DNA from: Methanomethylovorans sp. PtaU1.Bin093
GTDB taxonomy: Archaea; Halobacteriota; Methanosarcinia; Methanosarcinales; Methanosarcinaceae
Direction: 5' to 3'
Assembly (NCBI RefSeq): GCF_002067275.1
Contig: NZ_MVQX01000035.1
Span: forward strand, 1-64,000
DNA length: 64,000 nt
Part shown: positions 40,130 to 42,106 of the stretch, one piece after another
How positions within the stretch are numbered: the first letter of the stretch is position 1
How the letters are laid out: every line of letters starts with the position of its first letter
Position numbers and translations under genes: made by a program
The notes under the pieces: model-generated
Seen by the model: the letters and a program-made list of their open reading frames with translations, nothing else
What the model was told of the DNA's origin: nothing
Database searches by the model: none

Positions 40130-41329
40130 ATGAAATATGTAATACTGATCGGAGACGGTATGGCGGATGAACCCATTGCTGAACTGGGAGGAAGTACTGT
40201 GCTCCAGAAGGCAAGAACACCCAACATGGACTATATTGCTGCCCATGGAAAAGCAGGACTGGCCCAGACCGTTCCGGAAGGTATGCATCCGGGAAGTGAT
40301 GTTGCGAACATGTCCATCGTAGGATATGACCCTAAAAAGTATTACTCCGGCCGGGCTCCTCTTGAAGCTGCCAGCATGGGTATCGGACTGAATGCTGATG
40401 ATGTGGCCTTCAGATGCAACCTGATAACCATAGAGGACGGAATGATAGCTGACTACAGTTCCGGACACATTTCCAGTGACGAGGCCAGGGAACTCATACA
40501 AGCCTTAGATGCAGAGTTAGGTAAGGACGGGATCAGCTTCTATCCTGGTATCAGCTACAGGCACCTGATGGTAACAAAGAATAACTTTGGTGCTGAAACC
40601 ACGTGCACTCCACCTCATGATGTGATCGGTGAAAAAAAGGAAAACCACATGCCAAAAGGCAAGGACAGTAAAATATTGTGTGAATTGATAGACGCTTCCA
40701 TGCCTATCCTTGAGAAACATCATGTGAACCTTAAAAGGATAGCAGCAGGTAAGAAGCCGGGTAATTCCATCTGGTTATGGGGACAGGGAGGTGCGCCTGC
40801 ATTCCCTTTGTTCAAAGATATGTATGGTAAGACAGGAGCTATCATCTCTGCAGTAGATCTTGTGAAGGGAATAGGGACATACGCAGGTTTCGATGTTATC
40901 GACGTGCCCGGAGCAACAGGTTATCTGGATACCAATTATAAGGGAAAGGCCGAGTATGCACTGCAAGCTCTGAAGGATCACGATTTCGTAGTCGTGCATG
41001 TGGAAGCGCCTGATGAGGCAGGACACATGGGAGATGCAAAGGCCAAGATCCAGGCCATTGAGGATTTCGATGAGCATGTCGTTGGCACTATATTACATGG
41101 TGCAAATGCTATGACCGAAGATGTGACCATCCTGGTAATGCCTGACCATCCGACCCCTGTGCACTTGAGAACACATACCTCAGAACCCATACCATTTGCG
41201 ATCTACTCCACAAACGAGCAGCATCCGGATAATGCCAGGGCGTTCAATGAAGTTGATGTAAGGGCTGGGTCCTATGGAACTGTGTATGCTGCAGATCTGG
41301 TAAAGATCATGCTCAAAAGGCATATCTGA
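40130..41329 (+). CDS. apgM: Cofactor-independent phosphoglycerate mutase (archaeal ApgM)
   Basis: A 399-residue alkaline-phosphatase-superfamily enzyme that interconverts 3- and 2-phosphoglycerate. The metal-binding start [14 protein letters not shown] and the C-terminal motifs [14 protein letters not shown] and [20 protein letters not shown] are typical of archaeal ApgM. Start 40130 agrees with the conserved N-terminus; AGGTGTG lies just upstream. The longer frame upstream (to 40091) lacks such a site. Confidence 0.94.
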
Positions 41330-41361
41330 ATTTACAGTGCCACTTTTTTTAACAAAAGTCA

Positions 41362-41372
41362 TATTTATATAG
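41362..41372 (+). promoter_or_regulatory. TATA box of hsp20
   Basis: TATTTATATAG is centred about 25 bp before 41392, where the first leader hairpin starts. It implies that the transcript begins at or near that hairpin, with a leader of about 53 nt. Confidence 0.5.
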
Positions 41373-41391
41373 CTGTTCAACAATACATTTT

Positions 41392-41444
41392 ATTGGGGTT
41401 ATGCGGGGAATAGCGGAACCCCAATGATCAAAGGAGTGGATCAT
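41392..41444 (+). promoter_or_regulatory. Structured hsp20 leader with Shine-Dalgarno sequence in a hairpin loop
   Basis: ATTGGGGTT (41392-41400) and AACCCCAAT (41417-41425) form a perfect 9-bp stem. A second hairpin, ATGATC (41424-41429) with GATCAT (41439-41444), places AAAGGAGTG, which contains the Shine-Dalgarno AAGGAG (41431-41436), in its loop directly before the ATG at 41445. The two stems share two bases (41424-41425), so they compete at their junction. The arrangement suggests control of translation, possibly by temperature; it could also be a DNA operator. Confidence 0.45.
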
Positions 41445-41906
41445 ATGAAACAAGGTCTTACAAGATGGACACCTTCAGGTATGTCTAAATGGGACCCTTT
41501 TGAAGAGATAAGCAGGATGCAGGAACGCCTGAGCCAGCTATTCAGTGAACTGTCGCCTTCGGGTGAAATGAAGGCCTTAGACACGCTTTCACCTATGATG
41601 GACGTGCAGGATAAGGAAAAAGAAATAGTTGTAAAGGCGGACATGCCCGGAGTAGACAAGAAAGATGTAGAGATCGATATTAAGAACAATATGCTCTACA
41701 TCAATGCAAACATGCATCGCGAAAAAGAAGAAGAGAAGGAAGGATATGTGATGCGTGAACGTGCTTTTTCACGGTTTGCCCGGACCTTCAGCCTGCCTGC
41801 GAACGTTGTGGCAGAAGGGGCAAAAGCCAAACTGGAGGATGGCGTTCTGACCATAAACATACCCAAGGCTGAGATAGAGGAAAAGCAGAAGATACTCATC
41901 GAATAA
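41445..41906 (+). CDS. hsp20: Hsp20/alpha-crystallin small heat-shock protein
   Basis: A 153-residue small heat-shock protein. The alpha-crystallin domain is at about residues 45-140 (DKEKEIVVKADMPGVDKKDV, FSRFARTFSLPANVVAEGAK, LEDGVLTINIPKAE) and the short C-terminus ends in KILIE. It should form oligomers that bind unfolding proteins. The ATG at 41445 has AAGGAG 8 nt upstream; an ATG seven codons earlier (41424) lies inside the leader hairpins. Confidence 0.93.
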   Translation: MKQGLTRWTPSGMSKWDPFEEISRMQERLSQLFSELSPSGEMKALDTLSPMMDVQDKEKEIVVKADMPGVDKKDVEIDIKNNMLYINANMHREKEEEKEGYVMRERAFSRFARTFSLPANVVAEGAKAKLEDGVLTINIPKAEIEEKQKILIE

Positions 41907-41966: not shown

Positions 41967-42106
41967 GGTTAGTATTATAATTACGGCATCAGGGAAATAA
42001 CCTCGTCATATTTTGCTCAGTCGGGGTAACTATCATCATCGCCGCATCTGTTTATATGTAGATAGGCTTATTTATGCCTAATGACCTGTTAGCATCAGGT
42101 GTAATT

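Follow-up and report, generated by a model that had tools for sequence, protein, structure and literature searches.

A predicted stem-loop at the 5' end of the hsp20 mRNA is maintained within Methanomethylovorans

Introduction

Among archaeal small heat-shock genes, one of the described systems closest to the hsp20 gene reported here is Mpsy_0075 (Hsp20) of Methanolobus psychrophilus R15, which is transcribed with a leader of 65 nt or 12 nt according to temperature, the ribosome-binding site being buried in the longer one (PMC5378194). The same report credits long leaders in a cold-adaptive methanogen with a part in keeping transcripts stable at low temperature (PMC5378194). The gene of the window (the whole 64-kb stretch of Methanomethylovorans DNA that was analysed) is likewise a small heat-shock gene from the same methanogen family with a leader predicted to fold, but it corresponds to another paralogue and its ribosome-binding site is not buried. 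Its orthologue in genome G044 (very probably R15) is located at 2.10 Mb and encodes a 17.63-kDa protein, which fits Mpsy_2176/Hsp17.6 (PMC7961418); a weak match at about 77.5 kb in G044 fits Mpsy_0075. Assignment of the published Mpsy_0075 start sites to the orthologue of the window gene was rejected once the R15 paralogues had been located.

Bacterial RNA thermometers (ROSE, fourU, Synechocystis hsp17 and the Brucella dnaJ element) share with the window leader a short hairpin near the Shine-Dalgarno sequence of a heat-shock gene, but the Shine-Dalgarno sequence of the window leader is not paired. Stem-loops at the 5' terminus can also stabilise mRNA, as in the E. coli ompA leader. The window leader resembles this type in its stable stem, predicted to lie close to the start of the transcript or right at it, and in the predicted single-stranded Shine-Dalgarno sequence 3' of the stem; the archaeal 5'-to-3' decay enzymes are, however, unlike the RNase E pathways.

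Only two archaeal heat-shock regulators have been described, and both bind DNA (PMC9133787). The operators of these regulators (Phr and HSR1) overlap an hsp20 transcription start, as the window element is predicted to do, but the window site has neither the CTAAC-N5-GTTAG palindrome of HSR1 nor the TGGTAA arrangement of Phr, and its changes look like RNA pairing. The RNA thermometer that, according to the accessible text of PMC11549558, was the first to be put to use in an archaeon was an engineered bacterial one, and that portion of the report cites no natural counterpart from archaea. With genetically tractable methanogens among the relatives of these genera, a conserved hsp20-specific hairpin in the leader would offer a concrete and cheap test of archaeal heat-shock regulation via mRNA structure.

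The hsp20 gene and its promoter

The hsp20 gene (41445-41906, plus strand) encodes an alpha-crystallin small heat-shock protein of 153 aa (PF00011 match, 80 bits). Translation likely starts at the ATG at 41445, because the second in-frame ATG, at 41424, is missing from the leaders of the four sister genomes in the leader alignment. The predicted TATA box, TTTATATA (41364-41371, plus strand), was recognised by sequence and is kept in four of the five Methanomethylovorans leaders, the fifth having TTTATAAT. From TATA spacing, the transcription start region was predicted at 41392-41396 (plus strand), 24-28 nt past the TATA centre; for comparison, the 65-nt UTR of Mpsy_0075 in M. psychrophilus R15 (PMC5378194) puts the start about 27 nt past its own TATA centre.

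A second hsp20 gene of the same genome (contig C73; L002/L092) is located on the same strand, directly 3' of a divergent Cpn60-family gene, and is without such a leader hairpin. No SSU rRNA gene was found in this genome.

Structure and rarity of hairpin 1

The perfect 9-bp hairpin that the original prediction placed at the start of the transcript is present: ATTGGGGTT (41392-41400) and AACCCCAAT (41417-41425), both on the plus strand and read from the sequence (the latter also by scan), form an inverted repeat with a 16-nt spacer, here called hairpin 1. In the minimum-energy fold, an inner 5' arm TGC (41402-41404, plus strand) is paired with an inner 3' arm GCG (41413-41415, plus strand). The hairpin begins where the transcript is predicted to start, about 24 nt past the TATA centre, and its 3' arm ends 5 nt 5' of AAGGAG, the Shine-Dalgarno sequence.

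Perfect 9-bp repeats are not rare by themselves (14 overlapping-register matches in the 64-kb window, few of the sites being intergenic), and the leader was compared with several backgrounds. Among 39 intergenic 55-nt leaders in the window, that of hsp20 has the lowest folding energy (-19.5, against a mean of -8.9 and an sd of 4.3). Its best stem between the TATA box and the Shine-Dalgarno sequence is better than all of 300 dinucleotide shuffles, and the fold of 41390-41425 is better than 200 of 200 shuffles (z -3.6). The expected count of GGGGTT-N10..22-AACCCC in the window is 0.01.

In a genome-wide pattern search with up to 3 mismatches allowed, the hairpin 1 motif has a single copy in its own genome; the other match in the genus, in genome G068, is inside an unrelated reading frame, and TTGGGG was not found in the dnaK or thermosome leaders. 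Judged from these searches, hairpin 1 is specific to hsp20. Rfam covariance models (ROSE, fourU and others) gave no match in the window at the gathering score and, with E relaxed to 5, still none over the leader. A role as terminator of the upstream phosphoglycerate mutase gene was ruled out by position, because that gene ends at 41329 and is followed by a T-rich run at about 41344-41350, and no T-run is found 3' of hairpin 1.

Conservation within Methanomethylovorans

Stem 1 is kept with compensatory changes (two compensatory pairs) in five of five Methanomethylovorans hsp20 leaders, i.e. the window and four sister genomes, which align well and to which a scan of genome contigs added no further sister; the distance from the TATA centre to the stem is constant (21-23 nt) and the gap from the end of the 3' arm to the Shine-Dalgarno sequence is 5-7 nt. 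Leader L004 carries two double changes, GC to AU and UA to CG, and its stem is lengthened; L003 has one mismatch, L005 has one A-C mismatch and L006 retains TTGGGG/CCCCAA, the stems of the last two being reduced (shuffle p about 0.2). Across the genus, 89% of stem 1 positions are paired, against 27-58% when the partner arm is slid. The shuffle control for covariation is weak, since 52 of 500 shuffles reach the observed value with five sequences. The pattern suggests that pairing of the predicted 5'-terminal stem-loop has been kept by selection, as judged from few sequences with shared ancestry.

Hairpin 2 and Shine-Dalgarno accessibility

A second, 6-bp hairpin had also been predicted, and it is indeed found: ATGATC (41424-41429, plus strand) and GATCAT (41439-41444, plus strand) enclose AAAGGAGTG, with AAGGAG (41431-41436, plus strand) in the loop, and the hairpin ends at the base before the start codon. 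The fold of this hairpin 2 is weak: its energy is -4.3 kcal/mol (z -1.9), and 10 of 200 shuffles do equally well. The stem is broken in all four sisters, none of which has a contiguous 6-bp stem. The 5' arm is not conserved (the sisters have ATACTC, ATACTT or AAAATT), two sisters retain the GATC of the 3' arm in spite of having lost the 5' arm, and the two central pairs are unpaired in three of the five aligned rows. The original prediction held that the two stems compete through bases 41424-41425; the bases are shared, but competition is slight, as only these two terminal pairs are in common and the minimum-energy fold of 41390-41447 holds both stems, with hairpin 1 shortened by 2 bp.

From this arrangement, a translational thermosensor had been proposed, in which hairpin 2 would hold the Shine-Dalgarno sequence, open on heating and compete with hairpin 1. 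Hairpin 2 is part of the predicted minimum-energy fold, and in two sister leaders (L003 and L004) an alternative 4-bp stem, ACTC or ACTT with GAGT, could partly pair the Shine-Dalgarno sequence; the sister leaders are predicted to pair it to varying extents via unrelated pairings. In the window leader, however, the predicted unpaired probability of the Shine-Dalgarno sequence goes from 0.98 at 15°C to 0.87 at 65°C, a slight drop in accessibility on heating and no opening, with the AUG at 0.96 at 15°C and hairpin 1 mostly folded throughout 15-65°C. Because the Shine-Dalgarno sequence stays unpaired in its loop, there is nothing to unmask, and a masking thermometer via hairpin 2 was rejected on accessibility together with the lack of conservation. 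The thermosensor is thus very unlikely, and the pairing in hairpin 2 probably arose by chance.

Hairpins in related genera

Two further groups of hsp20 leaders, g11 (probably Methanolobus) and g10 (probably Methanohalophilus), have a hairpin of other sequence at the equivalent promoter-relative place. The identity of g11 is supported by genome G044, whose three small heat-shock genes fit R15 locus numbers. The g11 hairpin has different arms and begins 25-31 nt past the TATA centre in nearly all of 26 leaders, and that of g10 begins 23-26 nt past it in most of 8 leaders, the TATA call of this cross-genus scan being unreliable for L049, L070 and L071. Stems better than dinucleotide shuffles at p<0.05 were found in 3/5 leaders of Methanomethylovorans (g1), 11/26 of g11 and 7/8 of g10, and in 0/23 leaders of g7, g13, g14 and g5.

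In two g11 subgroups, stem pairing reaches 90% and 92% and is lower on sliding the partners; covariation in these subgroups shows no gain over shuffles. The motif of subgroup A is present in 8 genomes, with one copy each, always just upstream of hsp20, and it keeps both a G/G mismatch and a constant sequence in the arm, neither of which pure pairing explains.

In six subgroup A leaders (L012, L015, L017, L020, L026 and L028), the hairpin is followed immediately by another TATA-like box, CTATATATAA. By analogy with the two start sites of Mpsy_0075, this box could start a short, hairpin-free transcript. The Shine-Dalgarno-like GGGAGT is found in the hairpin loops of L007, L008, L009, L018 and L031 (g11) and in the 5' arm of other leaders.

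The eight g10 leaders (L047, L049, L050, L053, L054, L069, L070 and L071) have a 5'-end hairpin whose 3' arm extends into the Shine-Dalgarno sequence. Six of these leaders have the arms CTGTTATT/AATAACAG (or TTGTTATT), and the other two have (C)TGCAGT/ACTGCA(G); three pairs differ on both sides between the two arm types and the ending is always CAGGAGTG, these pairs having been counted by script because MAFFT misaligned the arms. The predicted mean unpaired probability of the g10 Shine-Dalgarno sequence is 0.01-0.34 at 37°C and does not exceed 0.47 at 65°C. In these folding models, translational control is more plausible for the g10 leader than for that of the window, and the predicted melting of the g10 hairpin is too high for a simple thermometer.

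RNA stem-loop, DNA operator or chance repeat

The one-sided changes within the arms bear on the choice between an RNA stem and a DNA palindrome. When g1, g10 and g11 were scanned with a scheme that scores both kinds alike, G-U and A-C combinations stood at 40:10, all pair counts being phylogenetically dependent. In hand-aligned arms, 18 columns have G-U and 3 have A-C (binomial p 0.0007, a value made optimistic by the hand choice and by shared ancestry). This bias favours RNA pairing, since no preference for G-T would be expected in a DNA palindrome. In addition, arm sequences and total span (about 23-34 bp) differ between subgroups, and with the G-U bias these changes lean to an RNA rather than a DNA element.

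The same DNA could instead be an operator, an alternative already named in the original prediction: a regulator dimer sitting on the transcription start would hold RNA polymerase back until heat shock, in the manner of Phr at the hsp20 promoter of P. furiosus. A repressor would be ideally placed over the predicted start; the Phr site covers 29 bp and overlaps the start, and HSR1 recognises CTAAC-N5-GTTAG (PMC9133787). The g1 and g11 arms have the outer TGG/CCA in common, and the arm sequence is fixed in g11 subgroup A. Against these points stand the preference for G-U, the arms and spans that vary between subgroups, the absence of the HSR1 and Phr consensus sequences from the site and the lack of further copies of the repeat, whether at dnaK, at the thermosome genes or anywhere else in the genome; with one copy in its own genome by pattern search, an operator of a regulon was rejected. 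The operator was therefore kept as the main rival and second choice, but it is unlikely. Slightly less probable still is a chance inverted repeat without function, conserved only through the close kinship of the sister promoters. Perfect 9-bp repeats do occur at several other sites in the window, and the genus sample consists of five sequences, two of them with weaker stems, but chance does not account well for the compensatory changes in L004, for the reuse of the same TATA-relative place with different arms in two other genera or for the G-U bias.

We consider it about an even bet (probability roughly 0.5) that the hsp20 mRNA begins with hairpin 1, a conserved stem-loop formed in the RNA and most likely acting after transcription. 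The transcript would begin within a stable stem at the predicted +1, the 3' arm would end 5-7 nt before a single-stranded Shine-Dalgarno sequence, and the stem would protect the 5' end of the mRNA from 5'-to-3' decay and/or limit ribosome loading next to it. We infer a post-transcriptional setting of hsp20 output because the stable 5' stem closely precedes the Shine-Dalgarno sequence; compared with known leaders, the layout may be that of one protecting mRNA or tuning ribosome loading. A wider proposal is speculative: several Methanosarcinaceae genera would have a rapidly evolving but always paired hairpin at the hsp20 5' end for post-transcriptional control, which in one genus (probably Methanohalophilus) would have moved onto the Shine-Dalgarno sequence and become a naturally occurring element of translational control in archaea, perhaps even a thermometer.

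Region downstream of hsp20

Just 3' of hsp20, a probable archaeal C/D-box sRNA gene was noted on the minus strand (41987-42043). This putative sRNA contains C, D', C' and D boxes, has inverted ends at its termini, and gives a sub-threshold Rfam match to sR1 (E 4e-4). The same C/D-box element is also present 3' of hsp20 at many other loci in the family.
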